The notes beneath the pieces are model-generated. The model did no database searches. It saw only the letters and a list, made by a program, of their open reading frames with translations, and was not told where the DNA came from. Shown in pieces: positions 6,055 through 35,990 of a DNA stretch of 40,490 bases. The position numbers were made by a program, and so were the translations under genes. Origin of the DNA: Lachnospiraceae bacterium. Lineage in GTDB: Bacteria; Bacillota; Clostridia; Lachnospirales; Lachnospiraceae. How positions within the stretch are numbered: the first letter of the stretch is position 1; each line of letters begins with the position of its first letter. The stretch spans positions 1-40,490 of the forward strand of contig JAFRKV010000061.1 of the NCBI GenBank assembly GCA_017431515.1, written 5' to 3'.

Positions 6055-7773
6055 TTGATACCAATCATTTACGGCAGCATCTTTACGGCGTCGTTGCTGT
6101 GCACCGCAATTTATGTGTTTATTTGGCATAAGCACTTCAATGTAAATATCAGCCTGATCTTTGCATTTGTGCCGATTGTCTGCCTCGGACATTATCTCTA
6201 CAGCATCGCTGGGGATCTGGGGGAGGCGTTGACGGCGCAGAAGCTCATCTATCTCGGCTCCAGCTTCCTGCAGATGTTTATTCTGTTCAGCATCACCAAT
6301 CTCTGCCAAATCGAGATCAAAAATTGGATCCGGACACTGCTGTTTTTTCTCTGCACCGTGGTCTTTACCGGCGCGCTCACCATCGGTCACAGCGACCTTT
6401 TTTATACAAACATCTCTTTTTCTGTGCGGAATGGGACTGTGTTTTTGATTCGGGAATACGGCCCCATGCACACCTTGTATTATGTGGTGGTGGTCGCTTT
6501 TTTTGCCATCGGGTTTGCGGCGATCTGTTATTCCTGGGCCAAGAAAAAGCAGGTGCCGCGGACGATCATTATTCTCCTTGTGATCCCTTATGTCATCGTT
6601 TTGGGCAGTTATTTCATCGGCAAAGAATTCGGCCGGGGGATTGACGTTATGACACTGGGATATCTCCTGGCGCAGATCATGTATCTCGTGATCGCCGCCC
6701 GGATGAATCTTTACGATGTGGCAGACACGGCCATCGATTCCATGGTGAGAGAGCGTGCCATCGGTTATATTTCCTTTGATTTCAGATATCGATATCTCGG
6801 GAGCAATGAGACTGCACGGCTTCTTGTGCCGGATCTCAATCGGCTTGCGGTGGATGAGGTTCTCGGAAATGGCGCGTCGGGAAAAAAGATCCGGCATTTC
6901 CTGGACAGCTTCCGGCATGACGAGAAATACAATCAGTTCATCTATACGTTTCACAGCGAAGGAAGTTCTGCTGACGAGGAAAAGATCTACAATGTGAACG
7001 TGAATTATCTGTATGAGGGCAGTTGGAAGCGGGGCTATATCGTCACCTTTACGGACGATACCGCAAACAGGAAATACATCCGGCTGTTGGACAACTATAA
7101 TGAAAAGCTGCAGACGGAAGTGGATCAGAAGACGCAGCACATCGTCGAGATGCATAACAACCTCATCATGAGCCTGGCGGTCATGGTGGAAAGCAGGGAC
7201 AATTCCACCGGCGGCCATATCAAACGGACCAGCACCGGGGTGCGGATCCTGATTGATGAGATCAAAAAAGAAGGCACCCATGACCTGACTCCGGAGTTCT
7301 GCCGGGACATCGTCAAAGCCGCGCCGATGCATGACCTCGGAAAGATTGCCGTGGATGACGCGATCCTGCGAAAGCCCGGAAGATTTACAGAGGAGGAGTT
7401 CGCGATCATGAAGCAGCATGCGGCGGAGGGCGCCCGTGTGATCCATGAGATCCTGCGCAACACGGATGATGAATCCTTTAAAGTCGTGGCGGAAAATGTG
7501 GCGCATTACCATCATGAACGGTGGGACGGATCCGGCTATCCGGAGGGGCTTTCCGGCGAGCAGATTCCCTTTGAAGCGAGGGTTATGGCCATTGCGGATG
7601 TCTACGATGCACTGGTGAGCAAGCGTGTGTATAAAGAAGCCTTCAGTTATGAAAAAGCAAATCAAATCATCATGGAAGGCATGGGGACGCAGTTTGATCC
7701 GGGGCTGAAAACAGTCTATGAACATGCGAAGCCAAGATTGGAAGCCTATTACGGAGGGCTTGAGGAAGGATAA
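6055..7773 (+). CDS. 7TM-sensor HD-GYP phosphodiesterase
   Basis: A membrane protein that probably degrades cyclic di-GMP in response to a signal sensed in the membrane. Residues 1-220 are hydrophobic with about seven membrane segments, of the kind found at the N terminus of some Firmicutes histidine kinases. A PAS-like region (about 230-340) and a helical linker follow. The HD-GYP domain holds His388 (GHIKRTS), the HD pair His426-Asp427 (PMHDLGK), and HHERWDGSGYPEG at 486-498, which includes the GYP motif. The start is TTG 6055 behind AAGGAAG (6038-6044); no better start precedes the first membrane helix. The following ABC transporter genes begin only 18 bp downstream, so they likely share a transcript. 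Its sensor domain resembles that of the hybrid kinase at 10203. Confidence 0.88.
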   Translation: MIPIIYGSIFTASLLCTAIYVFIWHKHFNVNISLIFAFVPIVCLGHYLYSIAGDLGEALTAQKLIYLGSSFLQMFILFSITNLCQIEIKNWIRTLLFFLCTVVFTGALTIGHSDLFYTNISFSVRNGTVFLIREYGPMHTLYYVVVVAFFAIGFAAICYSWAKKKQVPRTIIILLVIPYVIVLGSYFIGKEFGRGIDVMTLGYLLAQIMYLVIAARMNLYDVADTAIDSMVRERAIGYISFDFRYRYLGSNETARLLVPDLNRLAVDEVLGNGASGKKIRHFLDSFRHDEKYNQFIYTFHSEGSSADEEKIYNVNVNYLYEGSWKRGYIVTFTDDTANRKYIRLLDNYNEKLQTEVDQKTQHIVEMHNNLIMSLAVMVESRDNSTGGHIKRTSTGVRILIDEIKKEGTHDLTPEFCRDIVKAAPMHDLGKIAVDDAILRKPGRFTEEEFAIMKQHAAEGARVIHEILRNTDDESFKVVAENVAHYHHERWDGSGYPEGLSGEQIPFEARVMAIADVYDALVSKRVYKEAFSYEKANQIIMEGMGTQFDPGLKTVYEHAKPRLEAYYGGLEEG

Positions 7774-7791: not shown

Positions 7792-8517
7792 ATGAACGTG
7801 TTGGAGATCAACAACTATACCAAGATTTACGGGAAGGAGAAAAAGGCCTGTGACAATGTCAGCCTGACCGTGGAGAGCGGAGACATTTTCGGCTTCATCG
7901 GCCACAACGGCGCCGGGAAAAGCACGACGATCCGCGCGGTTGTGGGTGTGCTGGATTATGAGACCGGCGAGATCAAGATCGACGGGCACGATGTCAAAAC
8001 CGAGCCCATGGAATGCAAAAAGATCACAGCCTACATTCCGGACAATCCGGATCTGTACGAAAACCTGACCGGGCTGCAGTATTTGAACTTTGTGGCGGAT
8101 GTCTATGATGTGAGTGAGGAAGACCGGAAGAAACGGATTGAGGATTACGCGAAGCGCTTTGAGATCACGGATGCGCTGACGGATACCATCGGTTCCTATT
8201 CCCACGGGATGAAGCAGAAGGTGGCGATCATCTCCGCGCTGATCCACGAGCCGAAGCTGCTCGTGCTGGATGAGCCCTTCGTGGGACTGGATCCGCAGGC
8301 GTCCTTTATCCTGAAGGAGCTGATGCATGAGATGTGTCAAAAGGGGAGCGCGGTCTTTTTTTCCACCCATGTGCTGGAAGTGGCGGAGAAGCTTTGCAAC
8401 AAGATCGCGATCATCAAGCGGGGCTCCATTATCGCGAACGGCACCATCAAAGAACTGCTGGGAGACAAGCAGTCTCTGGAAGAGGTCTTTTTGGAGGCGG
8501 TAAAAGATGAAGCATAA
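7792..8517 (+). CDS. ABC-2-type exporter, ATP-binding subunit
   Basis: A 241-residue ATPase that would power the membrane protein encoded next. It has Walker A GHNGAGKST, a degenerate signature SYSHGMKQK in place of LSGGQ (common in ABC-2 exporters), Walker B LLVLDEPFVGLDP and the switch histidine in STHVLE. The start follows an AAGAGG-type site. The gene overlaps its partner by 11 bp, so translation is coupled. The subfamily resembles ATPases of antibiotic, lipid or Na+ efflux systems; the cargo is not evident. Its place between two sensor genes suggests export or resistance linked to signalling, which is inference only. Confidence 0.92.
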   Translation: MNVLEINNYTKIYGKEKKACDNVSLTVESGDIFGFIGHNGAGKSTTIRAVVGVLDYETGEIKIDGHDVKTEPMECKKITAYIPDNPDLYENLTGLQYLNFVADVYDVSEEDRKKRIEDYAKRFEITDALTDTIGSYSHGMKQKVAIISALIHEPKLLVLDEPFVGLDPQASFILKELMHEMCQKGSAVFFSTHVLEVAEKLCNKIAIIKRGSIIANGTIKELLGDKQSLEEVFLEAVKDEA

Positions 8518-10108
8518 AAGTATCCTCCTGCTCCGGACGATGATGGAAGCCACGAGCAACCTGCATATCGTGAAGTATTCCAAGGATCCTTCGGCGGTCA
8601 AAAACGCCCGGGGTGCCCTCATCGGAAACGTGATCCTTGGTGTGCTGCTGGCGGGACTGGTGGGAGCCTTTTCCTATGGGATGGCGTTTTTCGGATTCGG
8701 CGCCATGGTGCCCATGCTGGTGGCCACGGTCATCTCGTTTCTCTCGCTGGTGCTGCCGATCTTCAAATCCAACGGATATCTGTATGAGTATCCGGAATAT
8801 GACTCCTTGATGTCCATGCCGTTTTCCGTCAGGACCGTCGTCGCGGACCGGTTTCTGCTCATGTATTTAAAGGACCTTCCGTGGAATATGCTGTTCTCGC
8901 TTTCGGCGCTGGTGGGGTGTTGCATTGCCTCGATGCCCGGAGCGGTGACCATTATTTCCTGGATCATTCTGACGCCGTTCATTTCTCTTTTGCCGACAGT
9001 GATCGTATCCCTTCTGGGGGCTTTTATCACAGGCATCGGATCCAATTTTCGCCATAAAAAACTGATCCAGACCATCTTGACCTTTGTGCTCATGATCCCG
9101 TTGATCTTCAGCCGGTTTATCATCGACTATCTGATCCGGGATCAAAAGATCGCAGCGGTGATGACACGGTCCTCCGAGGCACTGTCCGGCATTTCCAAGG
9201 TGGTGCCGACGGTGGGATGGTTTGCGAAGGCAACGTATGAGGCGGACCCTCTTTCTTGTGTTTTGATGGTGGTGGTGTCGCTGGGCCTGTATCTTGGCGT
9301 GGTCTGGCTCATCAGCATCAATTACAGAAAGATCAATTCCAGACTGACCAGTCATGCGACGAGGCGGAAAGGAAAAAAGACTGCCAGAGGCTATCAGAAA
9401 AAGACGGCTGAACGCAGTATTCTCTTTAAGGACTGGAAGCGGATCACAGGCTCCACCCTCTGCGCTACGAATCTCGGCATGGGTGCTGTGATTTCCATCG
9501 TGGCGGCAGTGATCCTGCCTTTTGTCAGGATCGAGTCCATTGCCTCGATGATGGCGAACGGGCATCCGGTGGATCTTTCGGGGTATCATATGGTATGGCC
9601 GGCCATCGTGTATTTCTTTGCGGGGATGATGCCCACCACCGTTGCCAGCCCTTCGCTGGAGGGAAAAAATGACTGGATCTTAAAGAGCATGCCGGTCACG
9701 AAAAAGACGATATGCAAAGGAAAGATCGGGTTGAATCTGCTGCTGAATCTCCTGCCGGCGCTGCTTGCCGTCCTCGGGGGAATGATTTCCATGAGGGCAA
9801 CCGCCGTGGAATATGTGATCGGATTTTTGATGATGATCGCGATGTGCCTGTTTTCCAGCATCTATGGCATGCAGTGCGGACTGAAGTACTGCAGGGTGGA
9901 CTGGAAAAACGAGGTTGAGGTGGTGAAGCAGGGCAGAGCCGTGACGTTCTATATGCTGCCGAATCTGTTTGCAACCATGGGACTGGTGATCCTGATGATC
10001 TTTTTTGGCGCAACCATCGGCAGTGTGGCAGGCGGCCTGACAATCACCGTGGTCTATTTCCTCCTGGCGCTGCTCAGCTACCAGAGTTTGAGGCGTCTGA
10101 CACGCTAG
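8507..10108 (+). CDS. ABC-2-type exporter, membrane subunit
   Basis: A 533-residue polytopic protein with about 12 hydrophobic segments in two halves, separated by a basic cytoplasmic loop near residues 283-305 (RRKGKKTARGYQKKTAERS). It starts with ATG 8507 inside the end of the ATPase gene. It resembles large ABC-2 permeases of Firmicutes that pair with stand-alone ATPases. The last codons (RRLTR and stop) lie within the palindromic element copy at 10090-10171: the TAG at 10106-10108 is part of the apex palindrome GACACGCTAGCGTGTC. The original C terminus may therefore have been altered by arrival of that element. Confidence 0.88.
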   Translation: MKHKSILLLRTMMEATSNLHIVKYSKDPSAVKNARGALIGNVILGVLLAGLVGAFSYGMAFFGFGAMVPMLVATVISFLSLVLPIFKSNGYLYEYPEYDSLMSMPFSVRTVVADRFLLMYLKDLPWNMLFSLSALVGCCIASMPGAVTIISWIILTPFISLLPTVIVSLLGAFITGIGSNFRHKKLIQTILTFVLMIPLIFSRFIIDYLIRDQKIAAVMTRSSEALSGISKVVPTVGWFAKATYEADPLSCVLMVVVSLGLYLGVVWLISINYRKINSRLTSHATRRKGKKTARGYQKKTAERSILFKDWKRITGSTLCATNLGMGAVISIVAAVILPFVRIESIASMMANGHPVDLSGYHMVWPAIVYFFAGMMPTTVASPSLEGKNDWILKSMPVTKKTICKGKIGLNLLLNLLPALLAVLGGMISMRATAVEYVIGFLMMIAMCLFSSIYGMQCGLKYCRVDWKNEVEVVKQGRAVTFYMLPNLFATMGLVILMIFFGATIGSVAGGLTITVVYFLLALLSYQSLRRLTR

Positions 10109-10171
10109 CGTGTCGAGGCGCCTCTTCACGCAAAGTGCACATGCATGTTCCACGCATGGCACTTTTGCCCT
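10090..10171 (+). repeat. palindromic element, partial copy A (apex and right arm)
   Basis: This stretch shares with the complete copy at 34788-34922 the 17-nt run CGCCTCTTCACGCAAAG (10119-10135) and the end ACTTTTGCCCT (10161-10171). It has the apex palindrome GACACGCTAGCGTGTC (10099-10114) inside GAGGCG/CGCCTC (10090-10095/10119-10124). The right hairpin (10131-10147 with 10151-10167, loop TTC) matches the left hairpin of copy B in inverse orientation: 10127-10144 equals the reverse complement of 34817-34834, and 10154-10170 that of 34791-34807. The left arm is absent. It overlaps the permease stop codon and ends about 30 bp before the hybrid-kinase start, so it would lie in the intercistronic RNA. 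Confidence 0.85.
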
Positions 10172-32661: not shown

Positions 32662-34662
32662 ATGAAAATGAATATTTATGTAAATGTGAATGCCGCATTT
32701 GACGGCGACGGTACCAAGGAGCGTCCCTACAGACGGATCAATGAGGCAGCGAAGAGGGCGCTTCCCGGAGACGAGGTCATCGTGGCACCTGGTGTCTATC
32801 GGGAAAATGTCAACCCGATCCACGCAGGATGCGAGGATGCACGGATCGTTTACCGGAGTGAAAAGCCGCTGGGCGCGGTCATCACCGGGGGAGAAGCGGT
32901 GACTGACTGGAAACCCTACAAGGGAAATGTGTATGTGACAAGGATCAAAAACGGGATCTTCGGCGGATACAATCCTTATACGACGCTGGTTTACGGCGAC
33001 TGGTATTTTGCAACACCGAATAAACACACGGGTTGTGTGTGGCTCAATGACCAGGCCCTTTACGAAGACGTGACGCTGGAAGAATGCGAAAAGGGTGAAG
33101 TTTACGAGTGTTCCTGGGATCCCGAGGCATCCAAAAAGAAATGGTATGCCGAGCAGGATGAGGAGACGGATGAAACCGTGCTTTATGCGAATTTCGGCGG
33201 CGCGGATCCGACGAAGGAAAATGTGGAGATCACCGTGCGGCGGCAGTGCTTCATGCCCCAGGAAGAGGGCATCGGCTACATCACCGTCAGCGGGTTCAAT
33301 ATCAATAAGGCGGCGACGACATGGGCGCCCCCGGCGGCATATCAGGACGGCATGATCAGCCCGCATTGGAGCAAAGGCTGGATCATCGAGGACTGCGAGA
33401 TCTGGGGCAGCAAGTGCGCCGGGATTTGCATTGGCCGTTACTATGATCCGGAGAACGATCATTTTTACACGACGCAGCATGTCAAGAGCCCGACCCAGAT
33501 GGAACGGGATTCGGTATGCCGCGGACAGTACTATGGCTGGTTAAAAGAAAAGATCGGCAGCCATCTCATCCGCCGCAACAATATCCATCATTGCGAGCAG
33601 GGCGGGATCATCGGCCGCATGGGCGGCGTCTTCAGCGTGATCGAGGATAATCATATCCATCATATCAACAATATGATGGAGCTTGGCGGCGCGGAGATCG
33701 CCGGGATCAAGATGCATGCTGCCATCGATGTCGTGATGAGGCGCAATCATATCCATCATTGCACCATGGGCATCTGGACTGACTGGGAAGCGCAGGGCAC
33801 GAGGATCTCGCAGAACCTCCTGCATGACAATGAGCGTCCGGACTTTGCAAAGCAGCTGATGGGCGGCATGACCTGCCAGGATATTTTTGTTGAGGTAGGG
33901 CACGGGCCGACGCTGATCGACAACAACATCCTGCTCTCAGATGTGTCCCTTCGCATTGCGACCCAGGGTGTGGCGATGGTGCATAACCTTTGCGCAGGTT
34001 CCTTTACCTTTGTGGGCGGGGGAACGTCCTGGAGATACACGCCGTATCATATGCCGCACCGGACAGAAGTGATGGGCTTTATGACGATCCTCCACGGCGA
34101 TGACCGCTTCTACAACAATATCTTTATCCAGAAGTGGCCCTCAGAGGATTTGATCCTGTCAAATGATTCGGATCCGTCTGAGTACCAGAAAGAAAACCGC
34201 CAGGTCGGCACCTATTGCTGGGATGAATATCCCACCTATGAGGAATGGATCAAGCAGTTTGATATGGAGGAGCCCTATCCGGATATGCGCAAGCATGAGG
34301 AAGCACACTTCTCGCATCTGCCGGTTTGGATCGACGGAAATGCTTATTTCCAGGGAGCGAAGGCGTATCAAAAGGAAAAGCGCAACTTTATCGACGATTC
34401 CGGAAATGTCCACGTGGATGTGGTGGAAAAAGAGGACGGCTGGTATCTGGACACCAATATCTACGAGGTAATGAAGGACTTCAAGGTGGACATGATCTGC
34501 ACCGACACGCTGGGGAAGGCGTTTGAACCCCAGCAGAAATTTGAGGATCCGGACGGATCGCCGATCACTTTTGACACGGACTACCGCGGCAACCACCGCG
34601 GGACGGACATCATCCCGGGACCGCTTGCGGACGGAGCGGAGATCGCGAAGAAAGTTTATTGA
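32662..34662 (+). CDS. GH120-family beta-xylosidase (parallel beta-helix)
   Basis: A 666-residue cytoplasmic glycosidase that would cut imported xylo-oligosaccharides to xylose. The sequence follows the GH120 beta-xylosidase XylC of Thermoanaerobacterium closely as I recall it, for example FGGYNPYTTLVYGDWYF, YANFGGADPTKENVEITVRR, HWSKGWIIEDCEI and GAEIAGIKMHAAIDV. The family catalytic pair corresponds to Asp374 (GIWTDWEAQGTR) and Glu411 (IFVEVGHGP), counted from ATG 32662. A roughly 14-residue insertion (PDFAKQLMGGMTCQ) lies between them compared with XylC. There is no signal peptide. CGGAGG at 32652-32657 could serve ATG 32662 or ATG 32668. It is the last gene of the importer operon and a terminator follows. 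Confidence 0.87.
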   Translation: MKMNIYVNVNAAFDGDGTKERPYRRINEAAKRALPGDEVIVAPGVYRENVNPIHAGCEDARIVYRSEKPLGAVITGGEAVTDWKPYKGNVYVTRIKNGIFGGYNPYTTLVYGDWYFATPNKHTGCVWLNDQALYEDVTLEECEKGEVYECSWDPEASKKKWYAEQDEETDETVLYANFGGADPTKENVEITVRRQCFMPQEEGIGYITVSGFNINKAATTWAPPAAYQDGMISPHWSKGWIIEDCEIWGSKCAGICIGRYYDPENDHFYTTQHVKSPTQMERDSVCRGQYYGWLKEKIGSHLIRRNNIHHCEQGGIIGRMGGVFSVIEDNHIHHINNMMELGGAEIAGIKMHAAIDVVMRRNHIHHCTMGIWTDWEAQGTRISQNLLHDNERPDFAKQLMGGMTCQDIFVEVGHGPTLIDNNILLSDVSLRIATQGVAMVHNLCAGSFTFVGGGTSWRYTPYHMPHRTEVMGFMTILHGDDRFYNNIFIQKWPSEDLILSNDSDPSEYQKENRQVGTYCWDEYPTYEEWIKQFDMEEPYPDMRKHEEAHFSHLPVWIDGNAYFQGAKAYQKEKRNFIDDSGNVHVDVVEKEDGWYLDTNIYEVMKDFKVDMICTDTLGKAFEPQQKFEDPDGSPITFDTDYRGNHRGTDIIPGPLADGAEIAKKVY

Positions 34663-34760: not shown

Positions 34761-34766
34761 TATAAT
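34761..34766 (+). promoter_or_regulatory. -10 element upstream of the palindromic element
   Basis: TATAAT at 34761-34766 lies 22 bp before the palindromic element. No -35 of good spacing is visible. A start near 34773 would place the whole element in the 5' leader of the HD-GYP response-regulator mRNA. Confidence 0.35.
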
Positions 34767-34787: not shown

Positions 34788-34922
34788 TCAGGGCAAAAGT
34801 GCCATGCGATGAAATCGCATGTGCACTTTGCGTGGAAAGGCGTCTTGACGTGCTAGCACGTCAGAACGCCTCTTCACGCAAAGGTCACAATGTCACTTCG
34901 TGACATGTGACTTTTGCCCTGA
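34788..34922 (+). repeat. palindromic element, complete copy B (cloverleaf-forming)
   Basis: A 135-bp element bounded by a perfect 13-bp inverted repeat, TCAGGGCAAAAGT (34788-34800) and ACTTTTGCCCTGA (34910-34922). Inside are a left hairpin (34804-34810 with 34814-34820, loop GAA), a central stem (CTTTGCGTG 34826-34834 with CACGCAAAG 34875-34883; AGGCGT 34838-34843 with ACGCCT 34866-34871; apex GACGTGCTAGCACGTC 34847-34862), and a right hairpin (34890-34896 with 34900-34906, loop TTC). The CAAA/TTTG segments also allow a second fold into three successive hairpins. It ends 27 bp before the response-regulator gene. No target duplication is evident. Confidence 0.85.
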
Positions 34923-34949
34923 CCCCTATAGTTCCGGAAAGGACCTTTT

Positions 34950-35990
34950 ATGAGAGACAAAATCTTGGTCATTGATGACAGTTCGGAGGATCGCAAGAGC
35001 ATCGTAGACGCCATCGGCGGGAAATATCTGGTCTACGAAGCGGGTGATGGAAAGCGCGGGATCGAGATCCTGGTCAAACGCGAAGAAGAGATTGCCTGTA
35101 TCGTGCTGGATATCGGCATGCCTGTGGTGGACGGTTTTCAGGTGCTGGCAGCGCTGCATTCCAGAAAGCTTCTGAACCGGATCGCGGTGATCATCGTGAC
35201 GGGTGACACGTCTTTGGAGACAGAGGTGCGCTGCTATGCCTATCCGATCGCGGACTTTATCCGGAAGCCGATCAAACCTCCCGTCTTTTTCATGCGGCTG
35301 CGGTCTGCACTGCGTTTTTCCGGCATGATCGATCAGCAGGATGAGTTCAGTGCGAATGTGCTGGATATGTTCGGTGATATCGTGGAAGGCCGGGATATAG
35401 GCGGGGCGCTGCACATTGAGCATATCAAAGAGATGACCCGTGCGCTGGCCGTCAGCCTGATGAATTCTTATCCCGAATATGAACTGACCAAGCTCCGCGT
35501 CAATGAGATCGTGGAAGCGAGCGCGCTGCATGACATCGGAAAGGTCGCGATCCCGGATCATGTTCTGAACAAACCCGGCAAGCTTACCGCGGAAGAGTTC
35601 GACCTGATGAAGAGCCACACCACCAAGGGCGGCGAAATGATCGACAGGATGGCTTCGGTGCTTGCGATCGTACATCCGAATGATGCGGAGAATTTTGTCA
35701 AGATCGCTCACGATATCTGTCGCCATCATCATGAACGCTATGACGGAAGAGGCTATCCGGACCGCCTGCAGGGGGATGATATCCCGCTGGCGGCGCAGAT
35801 CGTGTCCATCGCGGATACCCTCGACGGCATGACGGGGCGCACCGTGTACAAGCGTGCGATTGAAAAAGAAAAAGCATTTCAGATGATTTCCACCGGCGAG
35901 GCAGGCATCTTCCCGCCGAAACTGTTGGAATGCTTTAAAGAGACGAAGGATCGTCTCATGGATATCATCGGCAATCAGAACCTTGATTAA
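34950..35990 (+). CDS. HD-GYP response regulator
   Basis: A 346-residue cytoplasmic two-component output protein, probably a cyclic-di-GMP phosphodiesterase switched by phosphorylation. The receiver domain (1-120) has acidic residues Asp9-Asp10, phospho-acceptor Asp54 (VLDIGMP), Thr84 and Lys106 (RKPIKP). The HD-GYP domain has His158, the HD pair His194-Asp195 (ALHDIGK) and HHHERYDGRGYPDR (259-272). GGAAAGGA precedes ATG 34950. No cognate kinase is adjacent. The next gene begins 20 bp downstream, so a functional link with the FapA-like protein is likely. Confidence 0.93.
   Translation: MRDKILVIDDSSEDRKSIVDAIGGKYLVYEAGDGKRGIEILVKREEEIACIVLDIGMPVVDGFQVLAALHSRKLLNRIAVIIVTGDTSLETEVRCYAYPIADFIRKPIKPPVFFMRLRSALRFSGMIDQQDEFSANVLDMFGDIVEGRDIGGALHIEHIKEMTRALAVSLMNSYPEYELTKLRVNEIVEASALHDIGKVAIPDHVLNKPGKLTAEEFDLMKSHTTKGGEMIDRMASVLAIVHPNDAENFVKIAHDICRHHHERYDGRGYPDRLQGDDIPLAAQIVSIADTLDGMTGRTVYKRAIEKEKAFQMISTGEAGIFPPKLLECFKETKDRLMDIIGNQNLD

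Follow-up and report, generated by a model that had tools for sequence, protein, structure and literature searches.

The 135-bp cloverleaf-forming unit in the window (i.e., the whole 40,490-nucleotide stretch of Lachnospiraceae DNA analyzed here) is probably a MITE-like mobile element that does not move autonomously, has a three-armed DNA palindrome as its body and, after its insertion by a transposase, was reworked by processes at the DNA level. We assign this reading a probability of roughly two in three. A MITE-like mobile element was among the options listed in an earlier note on this DNA, and this option is supported because the element occurs as many dispersed copies, because sites in a sister species are free of it and because its relatives in another genus, found in the genome G204, are flanked by target duplications and share their ends with an insertion sequence (IS). 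Strong compensatory change is routinely read as proof of a functional RNA, and the strong covariation of this cloverleaf family looks DNA-made.

The architecture described in the earlier note, in which a perfect 13-bp inverted repeat closes a unit with two side hairpins and a long central stem carrying a 16-bp palindrome, was confirmed by the sequence and by computed folding (Table 1). Folded as RNA, the unit had a minimum free energy of −84.7 kcal/mol (z −12.1), and none of 200 shuffled sequences was equally stable. Folding as DNA together with the flanks gave −52.9 (z −10.2), again with 0 of 200 shuffles equally stable, and the reverse strand (−84.4) was nearly as stable as the forward strand. 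It was also proposed that the same strand could form three consecutive hairpins. Such a fold is possible, with a value of −75.8 when the pairing span was limited to 64 nt, but the cloverleaf is favored. The ends of the unit are GATG/CATC-like. Beyond the conserved core, each copy has largely locus-specific arms, which are nevertheless inverted repeats.

Table 1. Features of the cloverleaf unit, its surroundings and the second copy in the window.
Feature	Position	Strand	Basis or remark
Whole cloverleaf unit, 135 bp	34788..34922	+	Fold and sequence
Left terminal inverted repeat, perfect, 13 bp, closing stem; TCAGGGCAAAAGT	34788..34800	+	
Right terminal inverted repeat, perfect, 13 bp, closing stem; ACTTTTGCCCTGA	34910..34922	+	
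Conserved core CAAAAG...CTTTTG, common to the family	34794..34916	+	123 bp
Arm 1 hairpin	34798..34827	+	Computed fold, coordinates counted by hand
Arm 2, long central stem	34828..34881	+	Computed fold, coordinates counted by hand
16-bp perfect palindrome GACGTGCTAGCACGTC, tip of arm 2	34847..34862	+	
Arm 3 hairpin	34883..34912	+	Computed fold, coordinates counted by hand
TATAAT, candidate −10 box for the gene downstream	34761..34766	+	Seen by eye; no hit in the promoter scan
GGAAAGGA, candidate ribosome-binding site for the HD-GYP gene	34936..34943	+	By eye
Response regulator with HD domain of HD-GYP type, downstream of the element	34950..35990	+	Response_reg, HD_5 and HD matches
Copy B, a truncated copy that retains one end, arm 1 and a portion of arm 2	10090..10171	-	

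Between the end of the unit and the ATG of the HD-GYP open reading frame (ORF) lie 27 nt. This position agrees with the earlier placement of the unit in the likely 5' leader of the HD-GYP gene, but the promoter was recognized by eye only, and the promoter scan gave no sigma-70-type match. The ORF upstream of the element (32662-34662) gave matches to a right-handed beta helix and to the insertion domain of glycoside hydrolase 120. Copy B, named in the earlier note, is genuine yet truncated; its broken edge enters the ORF at 8507-10108, and its central stem supplies the last codons and the stop of this ORF.

In G000, the window's own genome (82% complete), a BLAST search with the element gave 59 rows that correspond to 40 places. 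A covariance model built from 36 copies gave 96 rows that correspond to at least 52 places, approximately 10 of them partial; this count is a lower bound, as 150 of 819 candidates were scored and more places may exist. The element was found in three of the four genomes of the genus, that is, in G000, in the sister species G001 (at least 28 near-full places plus a partial one) and in G003 (one place), while no copy was found in the fourth, G002, in this search. Eight of 397 genomes matched in a family-wide search, G000 and G001 among them. Good relatives of the element were identified in G204, G268 and G084 and a weaker one in G388, all of which belong to other genera of the family. The weak matches in G134 and G236 (E 2e-4 and 3e-4) had folds unlike that of the element and were not counted. 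Plasmids, phages and two viral-contig patterns gave no match to the element. Covariance-model searching of relatives, as suggested in the earlier note, recovered many dispersed copies and many paired substitutions, a result that does not by itself separate RNA causes from DNA causes. A description of this cloverleaf family was not found in the largely open-access literature searched.

Variants of the unit were also noticed. Single-arm or armless versions that keep the outer ends (L022 3680-3732, L104, L106, L100 and L014 2829-2850) suggest modular loss, or building, of arms. Two copies (C15:101857 and C15:125329; L038 and L097) contain ~50 extra bases inside the central stem. In G388, two tandem cloverleaf-like units adjoin each other (C9:242005-242267; L187, L195), with long hairpins nearby. 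A fragment comprising arm 3 and one end is found in the Lachnospiraceae MAG RGIG5105 from roe-deer rumen (L168 ~6506-6610).

The clearest signs of transposition come from G204, in which the element is typically 193-194 bp long and has the ends TTGAGTTTCC/GGAAACTCAA. This end pattern occurred 58 + 57 times, compared to 2 + 1 for a backward control. Thirty loci were tried for target duplications. Both ends were located at 29 of them, and exact duplications of 7-12 bp flanked 22 of the 29 copies, compared to 15 of 812 mismatched flank pairs. Five 60-bp versions have the same ends and, by eye, duplications; a 110-bp and a 152-bp version are likewise bounded by these ends. The ends TTGAGTTTCC and GGAAACTCAA further delimit a 1.57-kb element of G204 (L257 535-2104) that encodes a DDE transposase of 417 amino acids with a DDE_Tnp_1 match above the cut-off. 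The Y(2)R(3)E(6)K motif, YFSRWKIEEYFRCKK, was read in this transposase by eye. Against NCBIfam, IS4 models matched it below their cut-offs, with IS701 models close behind. A second G204 transposase fragment, which scored below Pfam's cut-off, stops directly at such an end. The hallmarks of the IS4 family are a DDE transposase, the Y(2)R(3)E(6)K motif and duplications of ~10 bp (PMC2266710). By its motif, and by the duplications of 7-12 bp at the MITE copies, the 1.57-kb element agrees with the IS4 family, though below the NCBIfam cut-offs, and it is likely the partner of the G204 MITE.

In the window's own lineage, 43 G000 copies were compared with the available G001 sequence: 14 had an orthologous element, 10 had a counterpart site without the full element and 19 gave no clean two-sided match, although the ratio of 14 to 10 is not unbiased because the G001 regions were chosen partly around elements. 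The window copy is among the ten. Its counterpart HD-GYP leader in G001 contains no element; the right flank aligns closely (86%), and the left side was placed via a short match around TTTGTATAATA. In the favored reading, the window copy is a lineage-specific addition before the HD-GYP gene, and it may affect the expression of this gene by chance. Given that the G001 leader is without the element, any effect on the HD-GYP gene would be local to the window lineage. The comparison of occupied and empty sites proposed in the earlier note yielded G001 sites free of the element, but the window copy itself had no clean target duplication. Another of the ten sites, C51:118868, holds a full element in G000 (L015) and a 22-base remnant in G001 (L134 ~780-840), with a shared CATG at the junction; its left flanks are 99% identical and its right flanks 87%. 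The remnant looks like the product of a deletion that joined two short direct repeats.

The ends of the element in the G000/G268 lineage are GATGTTGAGG-like, and the arms of 23 of 70 copies still resemble GATGTTGAGG. A target duplication score of at least 8 was obtained for 2 of the 23 G000/G001 copies with such recognizable ends (null, 0 of 2000), and 7-bp duplications were seen by eye in three (L184, L192 and L196) of the six G268 copies for which both ends were displayed. When direct repeats were sought around 70 copies with no ends defined, they were no more frequent than between mismatched flanks; the duplications emerge only once the ends of the element are defined beforehand. No convincing IS with GATGTTGAGG-like ends was found in 60 G001 stretches or at 19 transposase loci, and the end pairs with up to two mismatches per end around several loci were of chance quality. 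A follow-up bracketing check for such ends was crude, with the wrong frame at many loci, and carries little weight either way. The DDE_Tnp_1 search of the 82% complete G000 gave no hit.

At the 14 sites shared by G000 and G001, two of which (C53:117751 and C32:66) were matched via the left flank only, the core, with the flanks as reference, is inverted at 10 and colinear at 4, and direct alignment in both directions agrees with this count. In a test of the left arms only, 3.8 of 6 bases were conserved at shared sites, compared to 2.5 after permutation (0 of 20000), and orthologous cores were more alike than permuted pairs (0.823 versus 0.781, p 0.0009). The conserved left arms and the likeness of the cores indicate that many of the shared sites are old. 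The core signal sits in six pairs, which rank 1-4 of 25 and, in the other direction, 1-5 of 36. Three of these pairs are colinear (C36, C16:56160 and C32:66) and three inverted (C12, C51:211567 and C32:5540); the cores of C36, C16:56160 and C12 are reciprocal best matches, and that of C51:211567 is nearly so. In the remaining 8 of the 14 pairs, the orthologous core ranks 7-24 of 25. As judged from these alignments, in-place inversion is directly suggested at C12, C51:211567 and C32:5540. At the other seven inverted sites, the exchange of cores between loci or a fresh insertion at an old palindrome would explain the orientation equally well. We tentatively extend these observations to a more specific proposal that we regard as possible but still doubtful: the core may be an exchangeable DNA cassette that flips in place and swaps loci via its short, palindromic ends, whereas the co-evolving arms stay with their locus, so that a mobile palindrome kept by replication errors would imitate the covariation of a functional RNA.

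Paired change in the palindrome is pronounced. At the first five positions outside the core, the arms pair in 97, 92, 95, 86 and 81% (37 of 40 copies), compared to 46, 69, 41, 38 and 34% when the left flank of one copy is combined with the right flank of another. Both sides change in 32 of the 57 fold pairs. Cells changed on both sides numbered 244, compared to 72.6 after shuffling (0 of 500), and sliding the partners abolished the excess. For the count of pair types, ten of the 71 copies from the two species were dropped as incomplete, unanchored or insert-bearing; at the 52 well-paired positions, the remaining 61 copies gave 3083 Watson-Crick, 24 G-T, 31 A-C and 31 other cells; over all 57 positions, G-T and A-C cells numbered 76 and 68, respectively. 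On the transcribed strand of 41 codirectional copies, G-U and A-C numbered 22 and 17 at the 52 positions and 54 and 42 over all 57 pairs, the latter being a slight lean toward wobble pairs. In these counts the cells are not independent, since the copies are related. As a control, 17 tRNAs gave 31 G-U and no A-C, a ratio to be read with the tRNA finder in mind, whose own model probably disfavors A-C. With G-T no commoner than A-C, the covariation looks as if it was made at the DNA level, unlike that of a selected RNA.

The proposed course of events has two steps. A transposase would recognize the ends of the element, insert it and duplicate the target; the likely partner in G204 is the IS4-type insertion sequence with the same ends. 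This step is well supported in G204 and partly in G268, and would hold for the window by extension. The palindrome would then be reworked in place, most likely by polymerase template switching between the inverted-repeat arms at replication, as the patterns described above suggest. Changes copied from arm to arm would keep Watson-Crick pairing during sequence drift, template switching could invert the core between the arms, and slippage could remove whole arms. Template switching between inverted-repeat arms is described as leading to arm homogenization and spacer inversion (PMC8604942), and recombination between terminal inverted repeats has inverted IS elements at 9% of the loci in Wolbachia (PMC3004938). 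Arm correction and inversion are what template switching in a DNA palindrome predicts, and core replacement must be added: cores may also be swapped for those of other loci or be re-inserted at old sites. Together, template switching, IS-type inversion and arm-loss derivatives could account for the main features, with template switching as the cause that we infer.

It could also be argued that the copies at shared sites are independent insertions, in random orientation, into old palindromes or terminator hairpins, with parts of the target hairpin remaining as the locus-specific arms, in the manner of the EFAR repeats of enterococci. The arms are indeed locus-specific inverted repeats, the orientation at shared sites is mixed, and the cores are unrelated at 8 of the 14 sites. 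A perfect hairpin of at least 10 bp is present in the stretch around two of nine element-free G001 sites (C57:65690, 10 bp; C1:46488, 12 bp; each 0 of 200 shuffles). The other seven of these sites, however, have no stem longer than 7 bp (13-188 of 200 shuffles had one as long), and the tenth, C51:118868, holds a remnant of the element itself. The right half of the C1 hairpin persists 5' of the element in G000, so this hairpin lay beside the insertion and not under it. Also against such an origin are the arms that still resemble the family end in 23 of 70 copies, the target duplications and family-specific ends of the G204 copies, and the three reciprocal best core pairs, with C51:211567 nearly a fourth. 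Overall, we consider insertion into old hairpins rather unlikely.

A structured RNA with a regulatory role, for instance an attenuator or a two-state leader under selection on the transcript, would agree with the very stable fold, the strong covariation and the intergenic position of the copies. In a survey of 71 copies with gene calls from a simple purpose-made caller, none lay inside a called gene (copy B shares 18 bases with the end of a gene); 49 were between codirectional genes, 11 between convergent and 9 between divergent genes, and 2 at contig ends. Of the 49, however, 31 had the same orientation as transcription and 18 the opposite one, which argues against an orientation-specific RNA role. 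The window had no match in Rfam 15 at gathering thresholds, the counterpart leader in G001 is without the element, and there is no clear excess of G-U over A-C of the kind seen in the tRNAs, even with the probable bias of the finder. Based on the sister leader, the mixed orientations and the lack of a wobble-pair preference, the two-state regulatory RNA suggested in the earlier note appears highly improbable. Even less credible is a REP/BIME/REPIN-type repeat moved by the tyrosine transposase RAYT. Such repeats are likewise extragenic, palindromic and present in many copies, but the units found here are ~135-194 bp long with terminal inverted repeats, and the G204 relatives have target duplications and a DDE-type partner. 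A REP is a palindrome of 20-40 bp with a GTAG-type end (PMC3733652), from which the 135-bp unit with GATG/CATC-like ends differs, so the REP/BIME option of the earlier note is not supported.

The reading that we favor, a MITE-like element with covariation that looks DNA-made, bears on how such covariation is read. Three features are diagnostic here: G-T as rare as A-C, copies in both orientations and cores that differ in orientation. Studies aimed at RNA discovery could use the cloverleaf family as a negative control, and the family would provide a natural multi-locus record of the correction, flipping and trimming of palindromes in a bacterium.

Several known systems resemble the element in part. 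EFAR are modular palindromic repeats of enterococci, mostly ~170 bp long, that form stem-loops and whose ends keep parts of target stem-loops. The host of EFAR differs from that of the element, and the likeness lies in this general description. In PMC3733652, EFAR is listed as a MITE. The inversions of IS in Wolbachia are similar in that inversion occurs in place between terminal repeats; they affect 9% of loci, compared to 10 of 14 shared sites here, of which only three have a related core, and the inverted segment here is a 123-bp palindromic core (PMC3004938). Template switching shares with our proposal the derivation of arm homogenization and spacer inversion from one mechanism, but was described for yeast genes with spacer inversions of 2-5 bases, compared to a core of ~120 bp here, for which the mechanism is deduced from sequence patterns (PMC8604942). 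A word search of a 2024 review gave no mention of cloverleaf, hairpin, EFAR, IS4 or Lachnospir (PMC10969869). The closest resemblance is to bacterial MITEs such as NEMIS/Correia, RUP, ERIC and YPAL, which are described as short (~70-300 bp), non-coding and mostly intergenic, with terminal inverted repeats and stable folds (PMC2229807, PMC10969869). The G204 relatives of the element resemble these MITEs further in their target duplications and in the presence of an IS that bears their ends. The element differs from these MITEs in its three-armed cloverleaf body, in arms that change in matched pairs and in a core whose orientation differs at most shared sites. In sum, it is a MITE-like element with a cloverleaf body that is mobile in a related genus together with an IS4-type partner, and its core is frequently inverted or exchanged for another.
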